IMG/VR virus record: IMGVR_UViG_3300035666_000119
Coordinates: 1 to 30,976 of that record
Origin: a virus
Length of the DNA stretch: 30,976 nucleotides
Reading direction: 5' to 3' (one strand)
This document shows positions 365-30,976 of the stretch, piece after piece (the first letter of the stretch is position 1; each line of letters begins with the position of its first letter). Both the position numbers and the translations under genes were made by a program. The notes beneath the pieces were generated by a model. The model saw nothing but the letters and a program-made list of their open reading frames with translations, was not told where the DNA came from and searched no databases.

Positions 365-397
365 TATAACAAAAAAAAATGTATGCCATTATAATGT
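365..397 (+). promoter_or_regulatory. Phage-type late promoter, site A (leaderless geometry)
   Basis: TATAACA at 365-371, 14 nt, CCATTATAA at 386-394, 3 nt, then ATG at 398. The same bipartite pattern is found before 2936, 19239, 23387 and 30228. Relative to the A of the ATG the boxes sit at -33 to -27 and -12 to -4, which places the expected transcription start at or next to the start codon. It would drive protease, capsid and the genes behind them. Calling it a promoter is inference from pattern, spacing and gene context. Confidence 0.7.
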
Positions 398-2901: not shown

Positions 2902-2935
2902 TATAACAAATCGTAATTAAAGACCATTATAATAT
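2902..2935 (+). promoter_or_regulatory. Phage-type late promoter, site B
   Basis: TATAACA at 2902-2908, 15 nt, CCATTATAA at 2924-2932, 3 nt, ATG at 2936. It stands immediately behind a terminator, as expected of a true promoter that restarts transcription for the portal and lysis genes. Confidence 0.7.
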
Positions 2936-3292
2936 ATGATATACTTAGAAAAAGATTTTAGAAATACTTTTGTTCTCACGTTAACTGAGAGTTCAACTAT
3001 TTCGAATCCTACCTACTTATTTTTATTCCAAAATGAATTTAATAAAAGTTCACAAGGCTTTCAATGGGTAGGAGTAGATACTTCAGACTATAAAGAAAGA
3101 TACAATTTGTTTGAGTTAACGGAGAGCGTAGATGCGACCTTTGTACTTGGACAATATACCTATACTGTTTACGAATCTGCCGACCCTATCGTCATTGTAG
3201 ACCAAGATATTGATTATTATACTGGTTTAAATGTAGTAGAAGAGGGCAGAATGGTTGTCGCAGGAGTAGTAACAAACACAATTTACGATTAA
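2936..3292 (+). CDS. Conserved structural-module protein of unknown function
   Basis: The 118-aa protein is predicted to be mostly beta strand and has no signal peptide or membrane segment. I recognise the pattern from Bacteroidetes phages and prophages (an N-terminal LTLTES segment, PTYLFLFQNEF, a RYNLFELTE segment, a YTVYES strand and a C-terminal GRMVV), but know of no assigned function. It is the first gene behind late promoter B, and its stop overlaps the portal start by one base (TAATG), so the two are translationally coupled. A small virion or head-decoration protein is plausible. Confidence 0.6.
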   Translation: MIYLEKDFRNTFVLTLTESSTISNPTYLFLFQNEFNKSSQGFQWVGVDTSDYKERYNLFELTESVDATFVLGQYTYTVYESADPIVIVDQDIDYYTGLNVVEEGRMVVAGVVTNTIYD

Positions 3293-8865: not shown

Positions 8866-9112
8866 AACAGCATTACAAGAAGTATTTTCAGAATTAGAAA
8901 AATTACATCCTCAACTTTTTAATGTTTATACGCAAGAAGGCAGAGATTTTTTAAATCACTTTCACAAGTTTTTAGAAATTGAGAGGCAGCAGATAATTGA
9001 AGCGCATGGAAGTAAACTAAAAAATTCAAGAGGAGTAACTAATTACGAATTTTGGTATACGGGAGAAATGTATTATAATGACAATTTTAAAAATAAAAAA
9101 AATGGAGAATAA
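8855..9112 (+). CDS. Small conserved phage protein (family shared with 15696-15905)
   Basis: The start is ATG 8855 (MENKTALQEVFSELEKL); a GTG further up at 8834 is less likely. The 85-aa product has a helical LEIERQQIIEAHG core and ends with a GEMYYNDNFKN motif, as in the gene at 15696 (MEKQQIVKAVFDSMG ... AEQYYNETFKN). I know this arrangement from many Bacteroidetes phages without an assigned function. It overlaps the next gene by 11 nt with the same junction sequence as at its own start. Confidence 0.55.
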   Translation: MENKTALQEVFSELEKLHPQLFNVYTQEGRDFLNHFHKFLEIERQQIIEAHGSKLKNSRGVTNYEFWYTGEMYYNDNFKNKKNGE

Positions 9113-9476
9113 AGAATTATTAAACGAGGTGATTGCAAAATACGAGGTAAACACGAAGTCAAGAAAACGAGATAAAGTTTACGCCAGGTTTGTTATTAGT
9201 AAATACCTTAGAAACAAAGGTTGGTCTTTACAAAAAATTGGAGAGGAATTGAATCGAGACCATTCAAGTATTGTTTATGCATTAAAGCAATTTGATATTT
9301 TGAAAAACGAAATGGATTTTAAGCATATTTATTCCGTTATTTTAAGAGACTTAGAAGAAACAGAATTTACGATTGATAACCCATTGATTACTGAGGTAGA
9401 AGAGCGAGTTTTAAAATGTGAAAACTACTTTCAAATGCGACTGCTCCAGGAAGAATTAATAAAAAAATACAATTAA
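9102..9476 (+). CDS. DnaA domain IV-like DNA-binding protein
   Basis: From ATG 9102 the product is 124 aa. Residues about 21-68 (RKRDKVYARFVISKYLRNKG, then SLQKIGEELNRDHSSIVYAL) match the C-terminal DNA-binding domain of DnaA; RDHSSIVYAL corresponds to the DHTTVLHA-type signature that contacts the DnaA box. The ATPase domains of DnaA are absent. Residues 70-124 are helical and unassigned. It may mark the phage origin, recruit or compete with host DnaA, or regulate transcription. It is the last gene before the promoter at 9481. The domain is clear; the role is inferred. Confidence 0.7.
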   Translation: MENKELLNEVIAKYEVNTKSRKRDKVYARFVISKYLRNKGWSLQKIGEELNRDHSSIVYALKQFDILKNEMDFKHIYSVILRDLEETEFTIDNPLITEVEERVLKCENYFQMRLLQEELIKKYN

Positions 9477-9480
9477 TTAG

Positions 9481-9508
9481 TTTGATTAGTTAAAAACTAT
9501 TATATTTG
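9481..9508 (+). promoter_or_regulatory. Host-type promoter for the recombination genes
   Basis: TTTG at 9481-9484, a short 16-nt spacer, and a perfect TATATTTG at 9501-9508, 24 nt before the ATG at 9533. It would drive the ERF, nuclease and SSB-like genes up to the structured terminator at 11067-11119. Confidence 0.6.
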
Positions 9509-12312: not shown

Positions 12313-13211
12313 TACTACAAAACGGACATAGCACCCAATACTTACAAGATTTTAAGGATGGTAAAATTTCTAAGGGATTAGGTATTGGATGCACTTTAGA
12401 CGATTACCTTAGATTTAAACGTAAACAACTAAACATAGTTTTAGGACATGATAATGTAGGTAAGTCATATTTTATGGAATGGTACTTCCTGGCGTTAGCT
12501 ACTACTCACGATTTGAAATTTACTATTTGGATGGGTGAGAATTCAAGCGGTCAAGTAATGAGGGATTTAATACAAATGTATTCGGGTAAAAAATTCCAAG
12601 ATTTAACATATAACGAAATAAAAAAACACGAATCGTTTATAGAGTATTATTTTACTTTTGTTTCTAACAATAAACTCTACAAACCAAAAGAAATGTTAGA
12701 TATAATCGGCAGCACTAATTCAGATGTTGGATTTATAGACCCATTTACGGGATTGGATAGAGGTATGCAGCACTCGGATAATTACGAATTTCTCAACGAA
12801 ACGAGACAATTTTGCAATCAATCAGGGAAGACTTTGTATATTTCAACACATCCAAACTCGGAAAGCGGTAGAAGTGGAATGTTATACCCACAAGAGCATC
12901 ATTGGTTTGGGCATTTAAAGCCACCATTGAAAGCGCATATTGAAGGAGGTAAACCATTCTTAAACCGATGTGATGACATGATTGTGATTCATCGATTGGT
13001 TAAGCATCCCGATATGAAGTTTCAAACTATGATAGAAGTTGAAAAAATCAAAGACCGAGATACTGGAGGTCAACAAACTGAACTTGGCAATCCTTTACTA
13101 TTTGATTTCAATAATGGATTAGGTTTTAAAATTGGAGGAGTTGACGCTATCAAAAGACGAAGCAATCCAATGTCAAATGAGTTACAAACTTTTTATAGAA
13201 TAAAAGAATGA
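12309..13211 (+). CDS. DnaB-like replicative helicase (RecA-type ATPase)
   Basis: The 300-aa protein corresponds to the ATPase domain of DnaB-family helicases without the N-terminal domain. Walker A is GHDNVGKS (46-53), Walker B is DVGFIDPF (Asp144), followed by LYISTHPN and a late NRCDDMIVIHR strand that resembles the DnaB/RadA core. It would unwind the phage DNA at the fork as a hexamer. No phage primase or polymerase is visible in this window, so host enzymes must supply these. It is coupled to the upstream replication protein and to the PP-loop gene by 4-nt overlaps. Confidence 0.8.
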   Translation: MILQNGHSTQYLQDFKDGKISKGLGIGCTLDDYLRFKRKQLNIVLGHDNVGKSYFMEWYFLALATTHDLKFTIWMGENSSGQVMRDLIQMYSGKKFQDLTYNEIKKHESFIEYYFTFVSNNKLYKPKEMLDIIGSTNSDVGFIDPFTGLDRGMQHSDNYEFLNETRQFCNQSGKTLYISTHPNSESGRSGMLYPQEHHWFGHLKPPLKAHIEGGKPFLNRCDDMIVIHRLVKHPDMKFQTMIEVEKIKDRDTGGQQTELGNPLLFDFNNGLGFKIGGVDAIKRRSNPMSNELQTFYRIKE

Positions 13212-14074
13212 AAACAGTAAACAGTATATCGGGTGGTAAAACATCAGCATACATTGCAGCAAATTATCCAGCGGATTATAACGTTTTTTCTTTAGTTAGA
13301 ACTGACGATTTAAAATGTTTATTTCCTGACGCTAAAATCAGACAAATCGTATCTGATAAGATTGGTAAAGAATTTATAGGAACATTAGAAGAAGACGCAA
13401 TAATTTACACAATGTTAGACCTTGAGCAATTTATAGGTCAGAAAATTGATTGGGTTAGTGGTAAAACATTTGATGAAGTAATCATGAGAAATAATGGTGG
13501 TAAATCAAAAATTTACTTACCAAATGTTACTCAAAGATTTTGCACAACTGAAATGAAACTACAACCTTTATTTGATTGGTGGAAAGAAAATTTTAATGAA
13601 CCAGTTGAAATGAGAATAGGTTTTAGGGCTAACGAAATGAGAAGGGCTAAAACAATGATAGAAAAGTTAAATAAAAACGGAATATTAACTTTTAAATCTA
13701 TTGTAGGACAATCTAAAAACGGAAGAAATAAATGGAAAGAAATAGAATGGCAAAAACCATCTTTTCCGCTAATTAATGATTCAATTTTTAAAGATACTAT
13801 TGAAGAATTTTGGAAAGGTAAACCAATTAGATTTGCTTGGATGAATAATTGTGTAGGATGTTTTCATCGAAATGAAATACTTTTAAAACTAATGTCAGAA
13901 AAGCACCCTAATAAATTTGATTGGTTTATAGATGCAGAAAATAAAAATGCGGAATTTGGTAAACGTACTTTTAAAAATGGAATGAGTTATGAAAAAATTA
14001 AGAATTGGAAAACACAATTAAATCTATTTGAAGAAGATTTTAATGAATGTGATTCAGGATATTGTGGATTATAA
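13208..14074 (+). CDS. PP-loop ATPase of the PAPS reductase-like family
   Basis: The 288-aa protein begins with the pyrophosphate-binding loop SISGGKTSAYIA (SGGKTS at 8-13). RFCTTEMKLQP (Cys112) matches the conserved block of phage PAPS reductase-like proteins. Four more cysteines, Cys215 and Cys218 with His220 (NNCVGCFHRN) and Cys281/Cys286 at the very end, look like a metal or Fe-S site. True PAPS reductases lack this layout. Relatives act in tRNA or DNA thiolation and in adenylation chemistry. The neighbouring DNA methyltransferase makes a nucleic-acid modification role attractive, but this is inference. Base use is more AT-rich than in the tail genes. Confidence 0.7.
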   Translation: MKTVNSISGGKTSAYIAANYPADYNVFSLVRTDDLKCLFPDAKIRQIVSDKIGKEFIGTLEEDAIIYTMLDLEQFIGQKIDWVSGKTFDEVIMRNNGGKSKIYLPNVTQRFCTTEMKLQPLFDWWKENFNEPVEMRIGFRANEMRRAKTMIEKLNKNGILTFKSIVGQSKNGRNKWKEIEWQKPSFPLINDSIFKDTIEEFWKGKPIRFAWMNNCVGCFHRNEILLKLMSEKHPNKFDWFIDAENKNAEFGKRTFKNGMSYEKIKNWKTQLNLFEEDFNECDSGYCGL

Positions 14075-14083
14075 AAATGTACT

Positions 14084-14353
14084 ATGAAATCAACTGATAT
14101 ACTAATCGCAAGACTAAACATAAAGATAAGCATCAACCGATTGCTTTTTAGAATGAAATTAGCCAATCTAAGCGAAGAAAAGGTAAAAGCAATAGAAAGG
14201 GAAGCAAATGATTTAAACTATGCTTTAAAAGTCTTTAAAATGCTTGAAGAAGATAATGCTACTTTTGAGCGAGTGAATAGTAGTTTAAGATTGGAAATAT
14301 TATATTTGAAGCAAGAGTTAAATAAACAACAAGAGGAGGAAATTGAATTATGA
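14084..14353 (+). CDS. Small coiled-coil protein, unknown function
   Basis: The 89-aa product is almost entirely helical with heptad-like spacing of Leu, Ile and Val (LIARLNIKISINRLLFRMKLAN, later SSLRLEILYLKQELNKQQEE), so a coiled coil is likely. It lies between the PP-loop and methyltransferase genes and overlaps the latter by 4 nt. No family recognised. Confidence 0.5.
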   Translation: MKSTDILIARLNIKISINRLLFRMKLANLSEEKVKAIEREANDLNYALKVFKMLEEDNATFERVNSSLRLEILYLKQELNKQQEEEIEL

Positions 14354-15006
14354 AGATACTAAATTTATACGCTTGTCTAGGCGGTAATCGATACAAGTGG
14401 GGAGAAGAACATGAAATTACTGCGGTTGAGTTAGACCCTGAAGCAGCGAGATTATATCAAGAAAGATTCCCAAATGATACGGTAATTGTTGCAGATGCAC
14501 ACCAATATTTATTAGACCATTATAAGGAGTTTGATTTTATTTGGAGTTCGCCTCCTTGTCCAACACATAGTAGAATACAAATAAGCCAATATACAAGAGA
14601 AACTTGGAAACCACAATATCCTGATATGAAACTTTACCAAGAAATTATATTTTTAGATACATTTTTTAAAGGTAAATATTGTGTTGAAAATGTAATTCCA
14701 TATTATGAGCCATTAATTAAAGGGCAACAAAGAGACAGGCATTTATATTGGACAAATTTTATTTTACCAAATGATTTGAGGGGTAGAAAAAATCCTGATT
14801 TATCAAGAACAAAAGATTTAATAACTGTTCTCTCTAAATTTCACGATTACGATTTTAGACAGTATAAAGGTACTCAAAGCGTTCAAAAAATGGCTCGTAA
14901 TTTAGTGGACTATGAAGCAGGTAAAACAATCCTAAATACTGCAATGGGAATAATACATAAACAAAATGTAAACCAAACATCTATATTTGATTATGAAGAA
15001 ATGTAA
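14350..15006 (+). CDS. C5-cytosine DNA methyltransferase, short phage form
   Basis: The 218-aa protein has the core motifs of C5 methyltransferases: motif I LNLYACLGGNRYKWG (SAM binding), acidic residue in TAVELDP, motif IV SSPPCPTHSR with catalytic Cys70, and motif VI YCVENVIPYY (ENV at 113-115). A later YWTN block and the closing NTAMGIIHKQ fit motifs VIII-X. It is about half the length of Dcm-type enzymes, with almost no target-recognition domain. It probably methylates phage DNA to escape host restriction, as no restriction endonuclease gene is nearby. The next gene starts inside its 3' end. Confidence 0.8.
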   Translation: MKILNLYACLGGNRYKWGEEHEITAVELDPEAARLYQERFPNDTVIVADAHQYLLDHYKEFDFIWSSPPCPTHSRIQISQYTRETWKPQYPDMKLYQEIIFLDTFFKGKYCVENVIPYYEPLIKGQQRDRHLYWTNFILPNDLRGRKNPDLSRTKDLITVLSKFHDYDFRQYKGTQSVQKMARNLVDYEAGKTILNTAMGIIHKQNVNQTSIFDYEEM

Positions 15007-15517
15007 ATCTTGCTCAGAACAATTTGAGCCAAAGCAAAAGTTTAATTCAACTATAAAATCCAATCGTTGCGAGGTATGTTTGAAGACTGCACAAGCGTTG
15101 AAGAATCTATCTGCTATTAAAAAGGAGAAGAAGATTAAGCAAAAAGAAGATTTATTGACGCTTCAAGACTATCTAAAGTTAACGCAGCAAGTGTTTAATT
15201 CTTGGATTCGGAAAAGAGATGCGGGATTGAATTGTATTTCATGCGGTAAACCTTGCAAGAAAGAAAATGCAGGACATTATTTTAGTTCGGGAGGTCATGC
15301 TAACGTAAGATTTGACGAAGACAATGTGCATTTACAATGTGAATATTGTAATACATTTTTGCATGGAAATCTAATCGAATACGGAATCAACCTGGAGAAG
15401 AAAATAGGAAAAGACGAATTCATAGTTTTGCGTGAAAAAGCATATGAAACAAGAAAATTCACGAAGATTGAATTAAAAGAATTACTTTTGAAATACAAAC
15501 AAAAACTAAAGGAATGA
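14993..15517 (+). CDS. ninG: NinG/Rap-like recombination protein
   Basis: From ATG 14993 the product is 174 aa. It has an N-terminal zinc ribbon (Cys4, Cys7, Cys26, Cys29), a basic helix, and a C-terminal HNH-like domain: FNSWIRKRDAGLNCISCGK, AGHYFSSGGHANVRFDEDN and HLQCEYCN. This is the NinG (lambda Rap) pattern. Rap is a structure-specific nuclease that resolves branched recombination intermediates and fits with the ERF and YqaJ proteins encoded upstream. It overlaps the methyltransferase gene by 14 nt and the next gene by 4 nt. Confidence 0.8.
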   Translation: MKKCKSCSEQFEPKQKFNSTIKSNRCEVCLKTAQALKNLSAIKKEKKIKQKEDLLTLQDYLKLTQQVFNSWIRKRDAGLNCISCGKPCKKENAGHYFSSGGHANVRFDEDNVHLQCEYCNTFLHGNLIEYGINLEKKIGKDEFIVLREKAYETRKFTKIELKELLLKYKQKLKE

Positions 15518-15950: not shown

Positions 15951-15990
15951 TTGATTAGAATTTAATCATATATTTGACGAAAAAAACGTC
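15951..15990 (+). promoter_or_regulatory. Host-type promoter and hairpin before the sigma-factor module
   Basis: TTG at 15951-15953, 15-nt spacer, TATATTTG at 15969-15976. Directly after it the inverted repeat GACG-A7-CGTC (15976-15990) touches the ATG at 15991. The hairpin would lie in the first bases of the mRNA or act as an operator overlapping the start point. This promoter places the phage sigma gene under host control. Confidence 0.55.
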
Positions 15991-16239
15991 ATGGAGTATT
16001 TAATTATTGTCGCTTTTGCTTGGTGGTTTGTCGAATTCGAGCCGATTCAGTTTGTAATAGATTGGATTTTTGACCATTTACCGATAAACTTTTTAACAAA
16101 TTGGGTTTATTCTGGACTAGGTTGTTTCAAGTGCATTGGCTTTTGGAGTGGACTAATCTACTCAGGTAGTTTTACATTTGCTTGTATCACTTCTTTATCA
16201 ACTTACATTCTTTCTTTATGTTTGAACAAGCTGAACTAG
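15991..16239 (+). CDS. Small membrane protein with a Cys-pair motif
   Basis: The 82-aa product has hydrophobic segments at both ends (MEYLIIVAFAWWFVEF; later GLIYSGSFTFACITSLSTYI) and a central GCFKCIGFWSG motif. A CxKCxxFW motif in front of a membrane segment recurs in small phage membrane proteins. The two cysteines may bind a metal or form a disulfide. First gene behind the promoter of the sigma module. Confidence 0.6.
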   Translation: MEYLIIVAFAWWFVEFEPIQFVIDWIFDHLPINFLTNWVYSGLGCFKCIGFWSGLIYSGSFTFACITSLSTYILSLCLNKLN

Positions 16240-16424
16240 ACTATATCGAATCAATCAAATTAGCTGATTCCACTATTCAGACTTCAAAAGTATCATGTAA
16301 AAAATTAGATACTATTTATGCACGAGTAAACGGAATAAAAAGCAAGGATTGTTTCTGCTCAATGGTTAGGCGGAAGATATTTATTAAAGACTTTTTCATT
16401 TGGTATGAAGGACTCACTAGATAA
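16218..16424 (+). CDS. Small conserved protein before the sigma factor
   Basis: The start is ATG 16218 (MFEQAELDYIESIKLADSTI), 68 aa; a longer TTG start would bury it deeper in the previous gene. It has a central YARVNGIKSKDCFCSMVRRK segment and ends in FFIWYEGLTR. I have seen similar short CFC...WYE proteins in Bacteroidetes phages. It overlaps both neighbours (22 and 20 nt), so it is probably co-translated with the sigma gene and may modulate it. Confidence 0.5.
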   Translation: MFEQAELDYIESIKLADSTIQTSKVSCKKLDTIYARVNGIKSKDCFCSMVRRKIFIKDFFIWYEGLTR

Positions 16425-16941
16425 ATACCTACAAACAAACTACATTGATGTAAAGAAGTACACGATGTATCTTTTAAACCGTATCAACCTACGCATTGAA
16501 GCCGACACCGTAATTTCAAACGCTTATCTTAACTGTCTAAAAAACGAATCAAAGTTTAAATATGGAAATGTTAAAGACTTTCTATTCCATTTTATCAAAT
16601 GCGAGTTATTATTCCGAGATACTGAAAGCAAAATAGAGATAGTCAATAGCGTAGAGAATGAGTTTCCAATTGAAGAAGCTGAAGACGAAATAAAAGACAA
16701 GATTTTATTTGAGTTGAACTACCAGGAGCAGAAATCAGTCATTGAAATATATCGAAATACTGTTGACGATAGAATCAAGTTAATTTTCTTTGAGACCTAC
16801 CACGATAAAGGCTATAATACTACCCGAAGCATAGCAGAACATTTCAATATTTCGGTATTTACTGCTCATGCAATGATTACTGAAATGAAGAATGACCTTC
16901 GACAATTAAAACACGAACTAAAAAAAGACCATTATGAGTAG
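16405..16941 (+). CDS. ECF-like RNA polymerase sigma factor
   Basis: The 178-aa protein has two helical parts joined by an acidic linker. Residues about 16-72 (YLLNRINLRIEADTVISNAY, then KYGNVKDFLFHFIKCELLF) match sigma region 2, which opens the -10 element. Residues about 122-170 (IKLIFFETYHDKGYNTTRSI, then AEHFNISVFTAHAMITEMKN) match the region 4 helix-turn-helix, which reads the -35 element. Size and the absence of region 3 are those of ECF sigmas. The gene sits just upstream of the terminase, where phages often keep their late activator, and four structural-gene starts carry a shared non-host promoter-like motif. Hence it is the candidate late sigma factor. Sequence match is by pattern only. 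Confidence 0.6.
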   Translation: MKDSLDKYLQTNYIDVKKYTMYLLNRINLRIEADTVISNAYLNCLKNESKFKYGNVKDFLFHFIKCELLFRDTESKIEIVNSVENEFPIEEAEDEIKDKILFELNYQEQKSVIEIYRNTVDDRIKLIFFETYHDKGYNTTRSIAEHFNISVFTAHAMITEMKNDLRQLKHELKKDHYE

Positions 16942-17658: not shown

Positions 17659-18075
17659 ATGGCAAAACATAAATACATAGAGACACCAGAGAAGCTATAT
17701 CAACTATTCGAAGAGTATAAGAGTAGCCTAAAACCAAGAGAGATTCAAAAGGCTACAGCAACGGGAGTAAAGTCAGAGTTTCACATTCCTCCGTATACAA
17801 TGGAAGGCTTTGAGAATTACTGCGAGGAGAAAATAGGATGCGTTCACCAATATTTCAATAATCAAGATAATGCGTATAAAGAATATCTGACTATCTGCTC
17901 ACGCATAAAGAGAATCATTCGTCAAGACCAAATCGAGGGGGGCATGGTCGGACAATTCAATCCAAGTATTACACAACGATTAAATTCGTTAACTGAGAAA
18001 ACTGACGTTACTAGTCAAGGTGAAAAGATAAACGAAATCAAAGTAACTATTGTAAGTGGAAATCAAAGCAACTAA
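17659..18075 (+). CDS. terS: Terminase small subunit
   Basis: The 138-aa protein matches the DNA-packaging gp3-like small terminase type: YIETPEKLYQLFEEYKSSLK, the IPPYTMEGFENYCEEKIG block, then YKEYLTICSRIKRIIRQDQI and a GGMVGQFNPSITQRLNSLTEK segment typical of Bacteroidetes phage small terminases. It would recognise the packaging site on concatemeric DNA and hand it to the large subunit, whose gene overlaps by 20 nt. Good match in order and context. Confidence 0.8.
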   Translation: MAKHKYIETPEKLYQLFEEYKSSLKPREIQKATATGVKSEFHIPPYTMEGFENYCEEKIGCVHQYFNNQDNAYKEYLTICSRIKRIIRQDQIEGGMVGQFNPSITQRLNSLTEKTDVTSQGEKINEIKVTIVSGNQSN

Positions 18076-19207
18076 AATCTTTGAGCAGAACTTTACTGCG
18101 CTATCTGATTCGTCTACTCGATTTATAATTAATCAAGGTGGCTCACGTTCAAGTAAGACCTATTCGCTTTGCCAGGTTATAATCGTCTACTGCTTACAAA
18201 ATCCTAACAAGGTAGTGAGTATAGTTCGAAAGACTTTTCCAGCTTTACGGGCAACAGTCATGCGAGATTTCTTTGAAATCATGAAGGACTTGGGAATCTA
18301 TGACGTAGCTAACCACAATAAGAGCGAGAATATTTATCGGTTTGGCAATGGCTCAATCGTTGAGTTTTTTTCAGTAGATGACGAGCAGAAGATTAGAGGA
18401 AGGAAAAGAGATATTGGTTGGTGCAACGAAGCCAACGAACTTTGGTTTGAGGATTTTCAGCAGTTAAATATGAGAACGGAATCGACAATGATTTTCGACT
18501 ACAATCCTTCAGATAGTTCTTCCTGGCTTTACGAACTACCCGAAGATGAAAGCGTACTAATCAAGTCAACGTACAAAGACAATCCATTCCTTCCCGAATC
18601 AATCAAGCGACAAATCGAAGACCTTAAAAGAACTGACGAAGCATTATACCAAATCTATGCGCTAGGTGAGAAGACTATAAGTAAAACAAACATCTATTCG
18701 AATTGGCAGTTTGTGAAAGAGAAGCCCTCCAGGTTTGAATCGTTCTGCTATGGTTTGGACTTTGGTTACAATCACCCAACTGCATTAATGAAAGTCTATT
18801 GGAACGAGAAAGACATATTCGTTGAATCGGTAATCTATGAAAGCTATCTAACAACTACTATGTTAATCGAGCGCATGAATGAATTAGGCATAGACAAAAA
18901 TGCTGACATATTAGGAGACCATTCAAGACCTGAGATAATAGCAGAAATTCAGATAGCGGGGTATAACATAAACAACGCAACGAAGGGAGTAAAGAAAGGA
19001 ATCGACAACGTCAAAACTTTTGGAGTTTACTGTTTGGATAATCCGAATCTGAAACGTGAGTATGAGAACTACAAATGGAAAAAGGTAGGTGATGCAATTA
19101 CTGACGAGCCAATCAAGTTGTTTGACGATGCGATGGATGCTATTCAGTATGCGGGGAGATTTATAAAAGACAATTACTACACCGATGATAGTTACTTCAG
19201 CTTCTAA
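18056..19207 (+). CDS. terL: Terminase large subunit
   Basis: The 383-aa protein is a Terminase_3/PBSX-type large subunit. Walker A is GGSRSSKT (28-35), Walker B and catalytic Glu lie in DIGWCNEANE (Glu125). The nuclease aspartates are Asp235 in YGLDFGYNHPTA, Asp288 in LGDHSRPE and Asp361 in DDAMDAIQYA. It pumps DNA into the procapsid through the portal and cuts it. The start is GTG 18056, inside the small-subunit gene. Unusually, the next genes are tail genes, not the portal, which lies about 14 kb away on the circular map. Confidence 0.9.
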   Translation: MEIKATKIFEQNFTALSDSSTRFIINQGGSRSSKTYSLCQVIIVYCLQNPNKVVSIVRKTFPALRATVMRDFFEIMKDLGIYDVANHNKSENIYRFGNGSIVEFFSVDDEQKIRGRKRDIGWCNEANELWFEDFQQLNMRTESTMIFDYNPSDSSSWLYELPEDESVLIKSTYKDNPFLPESIKRQIEDLKRTDEALYQIYALGEKTISKTNIYSNWQFVKEKPSRFESFCYGLDFGYNHPTALMKVYWNEKDIFVESVIYESYLTTTMLIERMNELGIDKNADILGDHSRPEIIAEIQIAGYNINNATKGVKKGIDNVKTFGVYCLDNPNLKREYENYKWKKVGDAITDEPIKLFDDAMDAIQYAGRFIKDNYYTDDSYFSF

Positions 19208-19238
19208 AACACGAATGAAATAAACACCATTATAAGAT
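19205..19238 (+). promoter_or_regulatory. Phage-type late promoter, site C
   Basis: TAAAACA at 19205-19211, 15 nt, CCATTATAA at 19227-19235, 3 nt, ATG at 19239. The -33-like box overlaps the stop codon of the terminase gene; the rest lies in a 31-bp gap between genes. Confidence 0.7.
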
Positions 19239-20648
19239 ATGGCAATAACACTAATCGCAAAACCTTTTACTTTCTCACCCGCTTACAATGAGTTAAAGTA
19301 TATCTACGATTCAACTAATAAGAATCAATTAGGCTTCAAATATATCTTTCAAGTACGTCAATATAGCGGCTCACAAATAGCTGAATATAGAGTTCTGCCA
19401 TTGGTAACAACTGGATACGGTGAGCAAGATTTGTCTAAGCTACTAAGCAATAAAGTTTCCTATGACTTACCAAGTGGAGCGATGTACAATGCTGCAAACT
19501 CGTTTTACGAATACGATGTAAGAATCGGAGAGGAATATATTACGGGAGTAAACTATACCGCTTCTTTGTCAAACAACGGAGGGAATGTTAAAGTAACAGT
19601 TACACATTCTTTTGTAGTTGGTGACCAGGTGAGAATCGTTCAAGCGGATAACGGAGTAGCTAATCCACAACTTGAAGGTTTGTTTGTTGTAACTGCAATA
19701 ACGGGAACTACTGACTTTACTGTTTCGGCTTTATGGTCGGAGGTAACGGATGCAACGATTAACGGAAGCGTCTACTATGCGGACAATCGTAAGACACAAA
19801 CTTTAGCAGTTGTAACGGTATCAAGGGCGGTAGTATTTAATGCAGCATTTAGTTGGTTAGATTGGATTAGTTACAACGAATCAAACTACAATTGTAATAC
19901 TGCAACTGATTTGCTTTTAACTTCGATTCCTCAAACGGGATTCTATGCGACTCCTGAGCAAGACCTAATCGTGAACGTACCTAATCAATCGGTATCTACG
20001 GGTTTCATGTACTTTGAGAATAGTAACGGAAGCGTATTTAAAAAGGCGGTAAGTAATGCCAATGTAATTACAGCGGTGACTGTTGGAGCAAACAATGTAG
20101 GCACATTGACAACGGTGAGCGGAACGGGTGGACTAGTCGAAGCAGATACTACCTACTATGACTTTTGGTATGCGTCAAGTGTAGGTGTACAATTCTCAGT
20201 TAAGTATCGAGTAAACTTAGACAAACGTTGCAAGATTGAAGATTATGAGATTTTGTTTCTAGATAGAAAAGGCTCATTCCCTTCATTTGCTTTTCAACTT
20301 AGAAGCTATGACAAAGGTAACGTACAACGAACTCAATTCAATAGAGACGTTGCGGGTTATGTTTCATCTTCTCGATGGAATTATTTCCCTACTGACTTTG
20401 GTATGACAAACGCAAGTGTATTACTCGAAAGTACAATTGACTTAAACACGAACTATATGACTGAGGAAATGGCAGTTCTATTTGAAGAATTGGTTTCTAC
20501 TCCTTTGGCATTTTTAAAGATTGGAGAAACATATCAAGCAGTTCAAATTGTAGATACATCTTTCGAAGTTGAGAAGTCAAGAAACAAGAATCTAATCAGA
20601 AAATCACTTACAGTTAAACCATCAAATCAAAACGTAATCAATGGTTAG
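19239..20648 (+). CDS. Tail protein (distal-tail or baseplate candidate)
   Basis: The 469-aa product is beta-rich. An N-terminal part (SPAYNELKYIYDSTNKNQLG) is followed by an Ig-like insertion (about 100-180: VKVTVTHSFVVGDQVRIV, FVVTAITGTTDFTVSA) and a C-terminal domain with EILFLDRKGSFPSFAFQL and RSYDKGNVQRTQF. Such two-part proteins with a late LDRKG-like segment precede the large tip protein in Bacteroidetes siphophages. A distal-tail or baseplate role is inferred from position. It is the first gene behind late promoter C and overlaps the next by 8 nt. Confidence 0.5.
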   Translation: MAITLIAKPFTFSPAYNELKYIYDSTNKNQLGFKYIFQVRQYSGSQIAEYRVLPLVTTGYGEQDLSKLLSNKVSYDLPSGAMYNAANSFYEYDVRIGEEYITGVNYTASLSNNGGNVKVTVTHSFVVGDQVRIVQADNGVANPQLEGLFVVTAITGTTDFTVSALWSEVTDATINGSVYYADNRKTQTLAVVTVSRAVVFNAAFSWLDWISYNESNYNCNTATDLLLTSIPQTGFYATPEQDLIVNVPNQSVSTGFMYFENSNGSVFKKAVSNANVITAVTVGANNVGTLTTVSGTGGLVEADTTYYDFWYASSVGVQFSVKYRVNLDKRCKIEDYEILFLDRKGSFPSFAFQLRSYDKGNVQRTQFNRDVAGYVSSSRWNYFPTDFGMTNASVLLESTIDLNTNYMTEEMAVLFEELVSTPLAFLKIGETYQAVQIVDTSFEVEKSRNKNLIRKSLTVKPSNQNVING

Positions 20649-23355: not shown

Positions 23356-23386
23356 AACACTATTCAAAAAATTACCATTATAAAGT
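23353..23386 (+). promoter_or_regulatory. Phage-type late promoter, site D
   Basis: TAAAACA at 23353-23359, 15 nt, CCATTATAA at 23375-23383, 3 nt, ATG at 23387. Again in a 31-bp gap between two large structural genes that would otherwise be expected to share one transcript. Confidence 0.7.
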
Positions 23387-25513
23387 ATGGCTTCATCACC
23401 GATTGAGATACCTATTAAATTAAATGGCTTAGCAGCTATTAAGTCAGAACTTCGTGAGTTGAAGGGTGAGTTAGCAAATGCGACTGACCCTAAACAAATG
23501 CAAGAACTCGCTATGAGAGCGGGTGAACTTAAAGACCAACTTGCAGATGCCAATGAACAAGTAGCAGTATTCGCTTCGGGAAGTAAGTTTGAACAAGTAT
23601 CGAATTCGTTTGGCTCGATGAAAGATTCTTTGATGTCATTAGACTTTGAAGAAGCAGCACAAAAGGCTAAAATGTTTCAGCAGACTTTAGGCTCAATTTC
23701 TCCCGCAACTATTGGGAATAGCATTAAAGGATTGATTTCAGTTGTTGGTAGTTTAAGTAAAGCGTTTGTTCAGTTTGGAGTAGCATTACTTGCAAATCCT
23801 ATCTTCTTATTAGTAGCTGCCATTGTTGCTATCGTTGCGGTTATCGGAGTTATAATGAATAAGCTGGGAATATTAAAGCCAGTATTAAATGCAATAGGCA
23901 AAGCGTTTGAGTTTATAGGTGCGGTTGTAGACATGGTTATTCAAGGATTCAAAGACTTGACTGATTGGTTAGGACTTACGAATAATGCAGCAGAAGACGC
24001 AGCAGATAAACAAGCAGCAGCAGCAGAAAAAACTGCAGCAGCATATGAAGAAAAAAGTAAATCGGTTGTTGGTGGCTATGATAGAGAGATTGAACTTGCT
24101 AAATTAGATGGTAAAAATACGGTTGAACTAGAAAAGCAAAAACAGTATTGGATAATCAAGACTGCGGAAGCGAGATTGAAAGCTATTAAAGAGAAAATCA
24201 TAGCGGGTAAATTAAGCGGTGATTTAGATTCTGAAGAAATTGCAGAATTACGAAAAGCCTACAACGAACAAGTTGAAGTAGTCAAAGATTCAAAGCACCA
24301 GGTTGAGGTAATCGATAAAACTGAAGCTAACCGTAAAAAAGAGGATAGAGAAAAGGAAGCTGAAGAACAAGCTAAAACAACGGAGAACAATAGAAAGAAA
24401 GCAGCGGACTCTTACAAAGCAAGAATTGAAGCAGAAAAGAAATATCAAGCTGAAAGATTAGCAGCAAGAAGACAAATAGAAGATTTAGAGGCTTCTTTAT
24501 TAGAAGAGGGTGTACAAAAAGAACTTCAAATAAACAAATTAAAATTCAAAAGATTAATTGAAGATACACAAGCGAGAGTCACAAAAACTAAAGAAGAAGA
24601 AGACGAAAAAGCAAGATTGCTAAATTTATATTATGTTGAGTATTCTAAAACACAAGATGAAATAAATCAAAAAGAACTTGCAAGAATAAATCAGTTTGAG
24701 ATAGACGCTAAAAAAATAAAGGAAGATGCGGAGACTGCTTGGTTGCAAACGGTTGAAGACATTGCGGAACAAAACTATATTAATTCATTATCAGACAAGG
24801 ACAAAGAACTTTTAGCAGTTAACGATAAGTACTTCGCCTTGCAAGAAGCTGCTAAAGGTAACGCTGAGCAAATGAAAATCATTGAAGAAGCAAAGGCAAC
24901 GGAAGTGGCTGCAATAAATGACAAAGCAGCTAAAGATGAAATCGCAAGTTTACAAGCAGTAGCAGATGCAAAAAAAGCTATTCAAAACGCAAACTTAGAT
25001 TTAGTTGTTTCAGGTGTTGGACTTCTTAAAAATGTATTTGAAAAGAATAAATCAATTCAAAAAGGTTTATTGATAGCAGAAAATGCAGCGGGTATTGCAA
25101 AGATTATAATTAACACCGCAGCAGCAAACGCAGCAGTAACTTTAAAATATGCTTTAATTCCTGGAGGACCAGCAATTGCAGCGGGTGAAATTGCAAGAAA
25201 TAAAATAGGAGCGGGAATAGGAATAGCTGCTTCAATAGCTGCGACTGCAAAAGGTTTAGCTGCTCTTGGTGGAGGTGGTGCAACGGGAGGAACTGCTCCA
25301 GGTGGAGGTGGTGGAGGTAGTTCGTCTACTTCAACGCAACAAGCTACCCCGCAAGTAAATCTATTCGGTGCAAACAATAACGCCAATACAATTAACGGAA
25401 GTCAGTCATCTAATCAAGGTGGCGAGATGATAGTAAAGGCAGTTGTTGTCGAATCAGACGTAACTTCAATGCAGAAAAAGATGAATAAAGTTCAAGAATC
25501 CGCAGTATTATGA
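23387..25513 (+). CDS. Tape measure protein
   Basis: The 708-aa protein has the tape measure layout: helical N end (LAAIKSELRELKGELANATD), a long hydrophobic stretch (about 115-158, with LLANPIFLLVAAIVAIVAVI), a long charged coiled coil (about 220-540) and an Ala-rich hydrophobic helix near 570-640. A Gly-rich linker and a short C end follow. It fixes tail length and is ejected into the host membrane; at the usual 0.15 nm per residue it predicts a tail of about 100 nm. This indicates a siphovirus, as no sheath gene is present. Overlaps the next gene by 4 nt. Confidence 0.85.
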   Translation: MASSPIEIPIKLNGLAAIKSELRELKGELANATDPKQMQELAMRAGELKDQLADANEQVAVFASGSKFEQVSNSFGSMKDSLMSLDFEEAAQKAKMFQQTLGSISPATIGNSIKGLISVVGSLSKAFVQFGVALLANPIFLLVAAIVAIVAVIGVIMNKLGILKPVLNAIGKAFEFIGAVVDMVIQGFKDLTDWLGLTNNAAEDAADKQAAAAEKTAAAYEEKSKSVVGGYDREIELAKLDGKNTVELEKQKQYWIIKTAEARLKAIKEKIIAGKLSGDLDSEEIAELRKAYNEQVEVVKDSKHQVEVIDKTEANRKKEDREKEAEEQAKTTENNRKKAADSYKARIEAEKKYQAERLAARRQIEDLEASLLEEGVQKELQINKLKFKRLIEDTQARVTKTKEEEDEKARLLNLYYVEYSKTQDEINQKELARINQFEIDAKKIKEDAETAWLQTVEDIAEQNYINSLSDKDKELLAVNDKYFALQEAAKGNAEQMKIIEEAKATEVAAINDKAAKDEIASLQAVADAKKAIQNANLDLVVSGVGLLKNVFEKNKSIQKGLLIAENAAGIAKIIINTAAANAAVTLKYALIPGGPAIAAGEIARNKIGAGIGIAASIAATAKGLAALGGGGATGGTAPGGGGGGSSSTSTQQATPQVNLFGANNNANTINGSQSSNQGGEMIVKAVVVESDVTSMQKKMNKVQESAVL

Positions 25514-28474: not shown

Positions 28475-28909
28475 ATGGCTACGTTCAAAGTAAAATACGC
28501 AACAAGGAATAAACTCGCAAGAGCCTTGCAGATGGAAATCAAGAAACTTGGTTTAATCGACTACGGTACAATGTACGATAGTGTGCGTATTTCTGCGATG
28601 ACTGGAACGGAACTAAATAGAATTGATATTACTGTAAGTGTAATGTACTACTATTTCTTTCTTGATGAAGGAACGATTTACATTGATGCGTTTGATATTA
28701 CGGATAGATGGCTTGATAGTCCAATCGTTCAAGGTATAATCGGTGAAATTGTGCAAGACTACATCCAATGGCAGTTTGAAAAATACCCGTTACTTGAAAT
28801 GGCAAGAATGCTAAACAATCCAAAAGTATTTGTTGACTTCAATTGGATAGATGAAAATGCTTTGCCATACAAACTACCTGGAAGAAACATTCAGAACTTA
28901 GATTTCTAA
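28475..28909 (+). CDS. Putative head-tail or tail completion protein
   Basis: The 144-aa product has an N-terminal helix rich in basic residues (KVKYATRNKLARALQMEIKK), a beta strand core (DYGTMYDSVRISAMTGTELN; ITVSVMYYYFFLDEGT) and a helical C half. The order, helix then GTMYDSVRI-type strand then YYYFFLDEGT, resembles HK97 gp10-type neck proteins. It is the last plus-strand gene; its 3' end overlaps the convergent minus-strand gene by 12 bp. Medium to low certainty for the role. Confidence 0.5.
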   Translation: MATFKVKYATRNKLARALQMEIKKLGLIDYGTMYDSVRISAMTGTELNRIDITVSVMYYYFFLDEGTIYIDAFDITDRWLDSPIVQGIIGEIVQDYIQWQFEKYPLLEMARMLNNPKVFVDFNWIDENALPYKLPGRNIQNLDF

Positions 28910-29635
28910 TTCTTTCTTCATTCCTAAAATATTAAAGGCGAATACTAGATTCAGTTCTAGTACGTCTTTGATTTTAGTAACATCTTCGTTAGCTAAATTG
29001 TAAAGTGTATGTTCCCAAGACCATCGGTTAATTTTATCTTCAGCTTCTTGCTCTTTTAAATCTTCTTCGTCTAGTTCAGCTTCGTCAAGTTCGTCTTCGT
29101 CAAAGATTGGGTTGAATAAGTTTTCATACACTTTTAAAAAGTTCTCCCGAAACTTAATGTATTCCGCAATGATTCCGTAGATTGATGTAATTGGTAACTC
29201 GTTAAACTGCTCCTTTCGTTTTTCTATGTTGAATGAATAATCTTCAAAAATCAATTCTTCCCATTCGCTTAGTTTAGTTTTACGGTATAATACTGAACTA
29301 ATATAGGTTAGATGTTTAACGTAATCGTTGGCGAAGTAGTATTCCAAGTCGATAAACTCACCTAGTTTCAAATCATTCAATCCAATGTATGTAAGGTTGT
29401 TGATTTCATTCTTGAAAATATTTGAAGGCTGCTTTTTTATGAATGTAACTTGCTTAACAATCTTGGAAAGTTCGTCTATTTCCATATCATCGAATTCATC
29501 TACATCTATGTCGGTCAAAATAGATAAGCATTCTATTTCGTAGCTAAATAAAGAGTCAAAGTCTTCGTTATTCAAAGACCTCAACTCAATAAACTGTTCG
29601 ACTGTTATATCATTCCACGATTTCGGTAGCTTCAA
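28898..29635 (-). CDS. Tail assembly chaperone-like protein, long form
   Basis: The 245-aa product starts at TTG 29635 (MKLPKSWNDITVEQFIELRS), 26 nt inside the preceding minus-strand gene; no ATG lies near. It is paralogous to that gene: ITVEQFIEL vs LTIEQFEKL, ELSKIVKQ vs KFTEIVKE, KKQPSNIF vs KKKPTKKF, SVLYRKTKL vs AIIFKRTDL. After an acidic linker (about 180-200) a C-terminal domain follows (WSWEHTLYNLANEDVTKIKD, LVFAFNILGMKKE), resembling chaperone C ends that are made by frameshifting. The reading frame is +1 relative to the upstream gene and opens 51 nt before that gene's stop, so either a TTG start or a frameshift is possible. Confidence 0.5.
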   Translation of the reverse strand: MKLPKSWNDITVEQFIELRSLNNEDFDSLFSYEIECLSILTDIDVDEFDDMEIDELSKIVKQVTFIKKQPSNIFKNEINNLTYIGLNDLKLGEFIDLEYYFANDYVKHLTYISSVLYRKTKLSEWEELIFEDYSFNIEKRKEQFNELPITSIYGIIAEYIKFRENFLKVYENLFNPIFDEDELDEAELDEEDLKEQEAEDKINRWSWEHTLYNLANEDVTKIKDVLELNLVFAFNILGMKKELEI

Positions 29636-30167
29636 CTTGAATTTCTTTAGCGGTTTTACCTAACTTTTGACCAATGTAAGCAATAAAAGGAATGGCAATA
29701 TTTGCTTTTTGCTCCTTAAACATCTTCGACTTTAAAGCAATGTGTGAATCTCCGTAATGTTCTGCTTTAGTTAAGTCAGTTCGTTTAAAAATAATAGCCA
29801 TAACTCTGGAAATATAATTTTCGGGAGAAGTAGATACTGCTTTTTCAATCATTTTTAAATCTCTAACGTTCAATTTAAACTCATCTTCGTAGGCTTGGTA
29901 AGTATATCCATCGAATTCGATTGATTTAAGAAACTTTTTTGTCGGCTTTTTCTTTGTATCGCAAAATTCTTTCACGATTTCCGTAAACTTTTCAAAGTCT
30001 AAATCATAAACTTCATCTTCATTTGCGCCTAAATCAATAAATATTTTAGCCCACTTTTCGAATTGGTCAAGTTCTAAATTGTTCATTGTTGCGCTCAACT
30101 TTTCAAATTGCTCGATTGTAAGTTCAGTAACTTCGTTATTGATTTTTGTTGTTCCGATTTTTACCAT
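29610..30167 (-). CDS. Tail assembly chaperone-like protein, short form
   Basis: The 185-aa product begins at ATG 30167 behind a TATATTTG box (30188-30181, minus strand). It is helical and acidic, containing LTIEQFEKLSATMNNLELDQ, DFEKFTEIVKEF and RVMAIIFKRTDL, with the same block order as its downstream paralogue. Pairs of overlapping helical acidic genes near the tape measure are typical of tail assembly chaperones (lambda G and GT), which coat the tape measure during tail building. What is odd is the strand: the pair faces away from the tape measure and all other genes. A truncated copy lies at the left end of the window. Confidence 0.5.
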   Translation of the reverse strand: MVKIGTTKINNEVTELTIEQFEKLSATMNNLELDQFEKWAKIFIDLGANEDEVYDLDFEKFTEIVKEFCDTKKKPTKKFLKSIEFDGYTYQAYEDEFKLNVRDLKMIEKAVSTSPENYISRVMAIIFKRTDLTKAEHYGDSHIALKSKMFKEQKANIAIPFIAYIGQKLGKTAKEIQVEATEIVE

Positions 30168-30194
30168 AGTGTTTTTTTAGCAAATATACAAAAA

Positions 30195-30227
30195 TATAAC
30201 AAAAAAAAATGTATGCCATTATAAAGT
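30195..30227 (+). promoter_or_regulatory. Phage-type late promoter, site E (repeat copy of site A)
   Basis: TATAACA at 30195-30201, 14 nt, CCATTATAA at 30216-30224, 3 nt, ATG at 30228. Compared with site A the only change in the whole 60-bp intergenic region is in the variable 3-nt spacer (TGT to AGT). Confidence 0.7.
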
Positions 30228-30976
30228 ATGGCTAATGACATTCCTATTTTTAAAGTTACGATTGACGAAGAATATTCCGATGGGGAAATCTTAGGAATTG
30301 AGCAAGTAGCGTTTACTAGTAAACCTGCAATTTTAGTAAAAGGAATGGCGTTTAATAGTCATTCAAAAGTAATGCAGTTTGCAGATGAGCCAAAGATGAG
30401 AATCGTAGCACCCGCAATGATTCCGATGGACATTTACCGCAACGATGAAGAAGGAGAATATTTTGTACAATTTTCTGAAGAAGAAATAGAAACAATTTAT
30501 TCCGATTTCATGCAGAATCTAAACAACAATAATCTTTTCAACCTGGAGCATGATGCTGGTCAAATTGTTCCCGCTTACATTCTTGAAAGTTGGCTAGTTG
30601 AAAATCCAAAGTCAGATAAATCATTTAGTTCGTATGGTATTGAAGTGCCTAAAGGAACGCTTATGCTGACTGCTCAAATAACGGACAAAGAATATTATAA
30701 TAAACTTGTCGAAAGCGGACAAGTTGGTTTCTCAATTGAGGGGTTTTTAGGCTTAAAATTAAGTATTAATAAACAAATAGAAAACAGTATGAATTTACCT
30801 GATGGAGAACATCTGATTGAAGGCAAAGTATACGTTGTAAAAGACGGAGTAGTTGTCGAAGTGAAAGATGCGCCTATTGAAGTGGAAGTCGAAATGGCTA
30901 CCGAAGAAGTAGTTGAAGAAGAGGTAGTGATGGCTGAGGAAGTAGTAGAAGAAGAAGTTGTTGAAACTGCAATGGC
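30228..30976 (+). CDS. Prohead protease, N-terminal part (cut by the window end)
   Basis: A strain-variant copy of the protease at 398, open to the window edge (249 codons, plus 2 bases). It keeps His and Ser of the active site (NLEHDAG, VGFSIEGF). It differs at several residues (DYS to EYS, EVLG to EILG, SDGE to EEGE, PKED to PKSD, SYSS to SFSS, GKIY to GKVY, AST to AT). Most base changes are silent, so both versions appear to be under selection for function. Confidence 0.85.
   Translation, partial: MANDIPIFKVTIDEEYSDGEILGIEQVAFTSKPAILVKGMAFNSHSKVMQFADEPKMRIVAPAMIPMDIYRNDEEGEYFVQFSEEEIETIYSDFMQNLNNNNLFNLEHDAGQIVPAYILESWLVENPKSDKSFSSYGIEVPKGTLMLTAQITDKEYYNKLVESGQVGFSIEGFLGLKLSINKQIENSMNLPDGEHLIEGKVYVVKDGVVVEVKDAPIEVEVEMATEEVVEEEVVMAEEVVEEEVVETAM

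Follow-up and report, generated by a model that had tools for sequence, protein, structure and literature searches.

A predicted ECF-like sigma factor encoded upstream of the terminase genes is the probable reader of late promoters in an uncultivated phage lineage

Introduction

Phage-encoded sigma factors that read bipartite late promoters are already known from Salmonella phage 7-11, and a one-box version is known from phiEco32. The 7-11 protein gp47 (SaPh711_gp47) binds the host core polymerase and reads late promoters of the form GTAAtg-16-aCTA, while the early genes of that phage use the host primary sigma factor (PMC8948821). In phiEco32, gp36 works together with the inhibitor gp79 (PMC8948821). 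Among ECF sigma factors generally, an AAC at −35 combined with a diverged −10 is the usual promoter pattern (PMC4598750). ECF-like late sigma factors of phages with mapped promoters are very few, with 7-11 and phiEco32 being those found in the literature searched.

Here we describe a candidate for this group in a 30,976-base virus record (34% G+C), hereafter the window. An original prediction, made from the sequence alone, proposed that one open reading frame encodes a phage ECF-like sigma factor that reads a set of late promoters. The protein is very probably a phage initiation factor of the sigma-70 superfamily, ECF-like in consisting of regions 2 and 4 only, and would act late in infection with the host core polymerase; this assessment draws on sequence comparison and structure modelling.

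Results

Genomic context of the sigma gene

The ECF-like sigma factor gene occupies positions 16405..16941 on the plus strand, exactly as claimed, and encodes 178 aa. It is the last gene of a three-gene unit transcribed in one direction, which opens with a membrane-protein-like ORF of 82 aa (15991..16239, plus strand) and continues with an ORF of 68 aa (16218..16424, plus strand) whose end overlaps the start of the sigma gene by 20 nt. This overlap possibly reflects translational coupling, and the 68-aa product may be translated together with the sigma factor as its partner. Since it has no match among phage records, an anti-sigma or co-factor role for it is unsupported.

The gene had been placed directly before the terminase genes and behind a host-type promoter, and each statement holds in part. 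The sigma gene does precede the terminase genes, but four small ORFs separate it from the small subunit gene (17659..18075, plus strand; phrog_606, E=2.9e-12), which lies downstream of the fifth promoter candidate described below. The large subunit gene follows (18056..19207, plus strand; PF04466, E=1.7e-30), and its TAA stop codon abuts the AAC of the next promoter. Upstream, a candidate host-type (Bacteroidota) promoter does exist at 15951..15976 (plus strand; TTG-N15-TATATTTG, with TTG at 15951 and TATATTTG at 15969-15976), but about 430 bp and two small genes separate it from the sigma gene downstream, and the spacing of its TTG (15) is below the usual. The TTG...TATATTTG element occurs at the same place in 11 of the 14 close relatives examined, and TATATTTG fits the −7 consensus TAHHTTTG of the Flavobacterium primary sigma factor (PMC6847099). 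Two copies of TTGATTAG-N-TATATTTG are present in the window, at 9482-9508 (spacing 16) and 15951-15976 (spacing 15), each before a gene unit, and they likely represent a shared early promoter type.

The presence of TAnnTTTG-type promoters, together with the absence of other signals, suggests a host among the Bacteroidota; the searches run recovered no host genome, prophage or isolate for this phage lineage. The early region also encodes a protein carrying the C-terminal DNA-binding domain of DnaA (9078-9476; PF08299, E 1.5e-8), a PAPS-reductase-like protein (13208-14074), a short DNA cytosine methylase-like protein (14350-15006) and a NinG/Rap-like nuclease (14999-15517). The two ends of the record, 1-1149 and 29831-30976, repeat each other over about 1.1 kb, with 95-99% identity where they were compared. 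Since this is short of 100%, the record probably represents a genome of about 29.8 kb whose closure joins two strain variants.

A search with the large terminase returned 567 related viral contigs, and the best 80 were retained; two more profile scans widened the family to about 20-25% identity. A divergent sigma homologue was found upstream of the terminase in all 181 loci whose upstream sequence extends to 3.5 kb or more. Many of these 181 loci were retrieved via the sigma protein itself, and the unbiased set is that of the 80 terminase-derived loci (the best 80 of 567), where the gene is present in 71 and the remaining nine end before reaching it. A second ORF of the sigma family was found in none of the loci examined.

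Sequence and predicted structure

The sigma70-ECF model TIGR02937 aligns with residues 4-167 of the query at E=4.2e-5, scoring 23.2 bits against a cut-off of 42.9, and matches 31 of 60 family members. For phrog_351 (‘RNA polymerase sigma factor’) the best E was 1.2e-5, and hhalign of the family against RpoE, FecI and 7-11 gp47 returned a collinear alignment over 137 columns (E 0.003, probability 10%). The sequence match to Sigma70_r2 and Sigma70_r4 proposed as a check was not obtained from the Pfam models, and the query alone drew only a helix-turn-helix hit from Pfam (Mga HTH, E 6e-4). Searches with the query alone against PHROGs, PDB sequences, 50,697 phage records and 84,980 bacterial and archaeal genomes found nothing, and we regard the PDB sequences matched by the family profile (glucosaminidase, eIF5B) as chance hits. 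Identity to cellular ECF sigma factors is about 10-15%. Because TIGR02937 stays below its curated cut-off and the Pfam sigma models do not match, we keep the protein as ECF-like and outside the classified ECF groups; the term is fair for the architecture and the promoter type.

An AlphaFold model built from an alignment of 60 diverse family members contains two helical domains (mean pLDDT 81.5); an earlier model from 18 near-identical sequences, with a pLDDT of 49, was set aside. The N-terminal part forms three helices (residues 2-27, 33-46 and 56-69), residues 73-91 form a low-confidence linker, and the C-terminal part (93-177) forms four helices. The protein can thus be divided into a region 2-like domain (residues 1-72), a flexible linker (about 73-92) and a region 4-like domain (about 93-177). 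Nothing resembling region 3 lies between the two domains, and regions 1.1 and 3 are absent, as judged from the 178-aa length and the model. The predicted structure thereby bears out the region 2-like and region 4-like helical parts without region 3 that had been described from the sequence.

The top Foldseek matches in the PDB are nearly all sigma factors (SigH, SigL, WhiG, sigma32, SigW, AlgU, sigmaE and SigK). Whole-chain E-values are only 0.009-0.1, with poor superposition and low whole-chain TM, because the two domains hold no fixed arrangement and the match is carried by single domains. Compared singly, each domain resembles its sigma counterpart, as had been anticipated. Residues 1-72 take the region 2 fold, superposing on region 2 of SigR (1h3l) with Z 8.5 and rmsd 2.6 over 68 residues, and residues 104-174 superpose on region 4 of sigmaE bound to −35 DNA (2h27) with Z 7.6 and rmsd 2.7 over 69, the TM of target of 0.65-0.71 in this comparison agreeing with a region 4 helix-turn-helix. 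The C-terminal part of Fusobacterium SigH (3mzy) gave Z 9.1 and rmsd 2.2 over 75; Z values of 8-9 are modest for helical domains, and the weight rests on the consistency of the sigma matches. Among viral predicted structures, proteins annotated as RpoE homologues rank first together with the uncultured Caudovirales protein A0A6J7X487 (BFVD), which matches best in structure (E 1e-9, 32% identity) and is evidently a member of the sigma family.

A rival reading is a late activator of the RinA/ArpU/Xpf kind with a sigma-like fold, which would bind at the promoters and aid the host sigma factor instead of replacing it. RinA/ArpU activators occupy the position immediately ahead of the terminase small subunit, which is where the gene is found; generic helix-turn-helix families match the C-terminal half of the protein, and TIGR01636 (phage_rinA) weakly matches 12 of 60 members (best E 0.003), the query itself not being among them. 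We nevertheless regard this reading as unlikely: TIGR02937 matches more members and covers the full length of the query, an N-terminal region 2 domain is predicted, and the late sites described below lack the host −7 box TAnnTTTG and carry a lineage-specific −10 that tracks region 2. A complete sigma factor is the reading that we carry forward.

Late promoters in the window

At least four late promoters, sites A-D, had been proposed without positions. The motif AAC-N15/16-CCATTATA-N2/3-TATG recovers four, with AAC at 368, 2905, 19208 and 23356, all on the plus strand and directly before late ORFs. Dinucleotide shuffles gave a mean of 0.04 matches to AAC-N15/16-CCATTATA, and the full motif including TATG did not occur in 300 shuffles. 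The AAC core of ECF type pointed out for the −35 box is present at all four sites. One promoter follows the large terminase gene (19208..19234; AAC-N17-CATTATA, then the ATG of the gene at 19239), a second precedes a tape-measure-like gene (23356..23382; AAC-N17-CATTATA, ATG at 23387), a third precedes the head gene operon (368..393; AAC-N16-CATTATA, ATG at 398) and the fourth lies inside the head gene cluster, before the ORF at 2936-3292 (2905..2931; AAC-N17-CATTATA). A copy of the promoter at 368 is found at 30198-30223, within the terminal overlap. Exact matches on the minus strand or before early genes are absent from the window. Between the tail and head blocks, at 28898-30167, the minus strand carries two ORFs (245 and 185 aa), the sole long leftward genes.

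A fifth, imperfect candidate (16910..16936, plus strand; AAC-N17-CATTATG) lies within the 3′-terminal codons of the sigma gene and points towards the small ORFs and the terminase genes; the four sites and this candidate all stand before terminase, tail or head genes. In 9 of 23 family clusters the sigma gene likewise carries a motif at its 3′ end, compared with about 0.6 expected (0.62). Conserved protein sequence was considered as the sole cause and rejected, since in several clusters other residues are encoded there or the site extends beyond the stop codon; despite these differing codons, the sites keep AAC-N16/17 and the −10 of their own branch. From this pattern, the site at 16910 is a probable promoter.

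Conservation and co-variation across relatives

Close relatives carry both boxes at matching positions, largely unchanged, with a variable spacer between them. In more distant phages of the family, AAC persists in the post-terminase slot, 16-18 nt from an altered −10: CCATTATA in the window is replaced elsewhere by ACATTATA, ACAATATA, CTATTATA, GCAATATA or xTAATATA. The most divergent branch (lineages L056, L042, L043, L096 and L182) carries ACAATTAA, ACTTATTA or CCAAGTTT at a similar distance from AAC; the −10 letters of these five most divergent tips were assigned by eye. A general form of the motif is found after the terminase in 25 of 38 distinct regions (0.42 expected), before the tape-measure gene in 14 of 24 (0.36 expected; some of the ten unmatched regions evidently result from a mis-set gene start) and before head genes in 3 of 7 (0.1 expected). 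No minus-strand match preceding an ORF was seen in 22 loci. The AAC at −35, the diverged −10 and the near-constant spacing are those of ECF promoters. Taken with the presence of the gene in every testable locus, these counts provide the co-occurrence of gene and motif across related phages that had been named as support for the sigma reading.

The converse case, a related phage with the motif and without the gene, did not appear. The window's version of the motif occurs in 23 of 2.9 million viral contigs. Of these, 17 contain the gene, four are partial sequences from the same phages and begin downstream of it, two are chance matches in unrelated sequence, and none of the 23 is a related phage that demonstrably lacks it. 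Where a phage has two recognisable sites, they resemble each other more than they resemble those of other phages (p 0.004, n=7; p 0.034, n=5), as expected for one reader acting in trans.

The −10 element of a promoter is recognised by region 2 of the sigma factor. In Mantel tests, the distance between −10 variants correlates with region 2 distance (r 0.70; 0.51 given region 4 and TerL), whereas given region 2 the values for region 4 and TerL are −0.06 and −0.08 (full set). Once region 4 distance was allowed for, neither loop L3 alone nor the region 4 recognition helix correlated further with the −10 variant. Mantel tests are liberal on related sequences, and this is a fragile result: when the five most divergent tips are dropped, the correlation with region 2 given TerL is 0.20 (p 0.066), though region 2 still outranks region 4 (0.36 vs 0.03). 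Across phages, the −10 variant tracks region 2 of the sigma factor, less clearly when the most divergent lineages are removed. Sigma-like fold, promoter motif and conservation, gene–motif co-occurrence and co-variation were all computed directly, and the co-occurrence and co-diversification across relatives add support to the proposed sigma–promoter pairing.

It is very improbable, in our estimate, that the late promoters are genuine and read by another phage or host factor, with the sigma-like protein a co-inherited bystander. Every gene in these phages co-occurs, the sigma–site link is computational, and the −10 variant follows TerL distance as well (correlation 0.26, or 0.53 without the five divergent tips). 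TerL distance adds nothing beyond region 2 distance in the full set, however; the loci offer no second member of the sigma family, and gene and sites share the AAC/−10 logic of ECF sigma factors. Least credible of all is that the CCATTATA box is a translation-initiation or operator element (the ATG forms part of a palindrome, CCAT-N8-ATGG) recognised by ribosomes or by a repressor: for it speak the ATG exactly 12 nt past the first C at all four sites in the window (ORFs 398, 2936, 19239 and 23387) and the fact that Bacteroidota, lacking Shine-Dalgarno sequences, tune initiation by Kozak-like upstream bases (PMC6847099), but the box-to-ATG distance differs by branch from about 3 to about 20 nt, relatives lose the ATGG half and with it the palindrome while keeping AAC and the 16-18-nt spacing, and the fifth site sits in coding sequence. 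Because the ATG distance varies between phages, the late element is not a start-codon signal. We know of no translation signal that includes a distant AAC box at fixed spacing.

Discussion

Structure, co-occurrence and co-diversification together support the original prediction of a phage ECF-like sigma factor as the reader of the late promoters. In the mechanism that we propose, host polymerase would make the sigma factor early from the host-type promoter, because the TATATTTG element heads the sigma unit. The protein would then bind the host core RNA polymerase and steer it to the bipartite late promoters (an AAC-containing −35, 15-16 nt and the CCATTATA −10), and the polymerase so directed would transcribe the terminase, tail and head genes, while early genes would be served by host primary-sigma promoters (TAnnTTTG). 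Core binding, transcription from the late sites, timing and leaderless starts are the steps that we infer. Most late transcripts in the window's branch may start at the ATG or within a few nucleotides of it, and so be leaderless or nearly so, given that 4-5 nt separate the −10 from the start in F. johnsoniae; of the predicted transcripts of F. johnsoniae, 87% have leaders longer than 10 nt (PMC6847099).

A broader scheme is possible but doubtful: the family may form a series of sigma factors in which region 2 and the −10 have repeatedly co-diversified around a fixed AAC to give pairs that are mutually orthogonal inside a single phage lineage, with the window's promoters fused to the start codon, late messages beginning at the A of the ATG (leaderless) and one promoter placed within the last codons of the sigma gene itself. 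If the mechanism is true, the many natural variants make co-change of sigma and promoter specificity directly testable, and the family would supply small sigma/promoter pairs for Bacteroidota, whose transcription signals are unlike those of E. coli. The lineage is uncultivated and apparently of Bacteroidota, and it carries a putative sigma factor whose candidate promoters can be identified from sequence.

Among described systems, gp47 of phage 7-11 is comparable in being a small phage sigma factor with regions 2 and 4 (PMC8948821). The two are barely related in sequence, as the hhalign value above indicates, and both −35 and −10 differ; 7-11 is a 90-kb enterobacterial phage and the window a 30-kb phage apparently of Bacteroidota, and gp47, unlike the window's sigma factor, does not adjoin the terminase. 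The phiEco32 protein gp36 is likewise a phage-encoded sigma factor, for middle and late genes, but has no region 4 match and uses the single-element promoter tAATGTAtA (PMC8948821). Cellular ECF sigma factors (group 4: E. coli RpoE and FecI; Streptomyces SigR) share regions 2 and 4 without 1.1 and 3, the predicted fold of each domain and an AAC at −35 with a variable −10, whereas the window's sigma factor is phage-borne and fixed beside the terminase, with no anti-sigma gene recognised. Activators of the RinA/ArpU/Xpf kind are alike in their position before the terminase and in a weak sequence match to some members, but the region 2 domain and lineage-specific −10 of the window's family point to a full sigma factor. 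What is new here is the sigma family itself, its apparent setting in phages of Bacteroidota, its fixed place beside the terminase and its promoters, which form a co-varying series.
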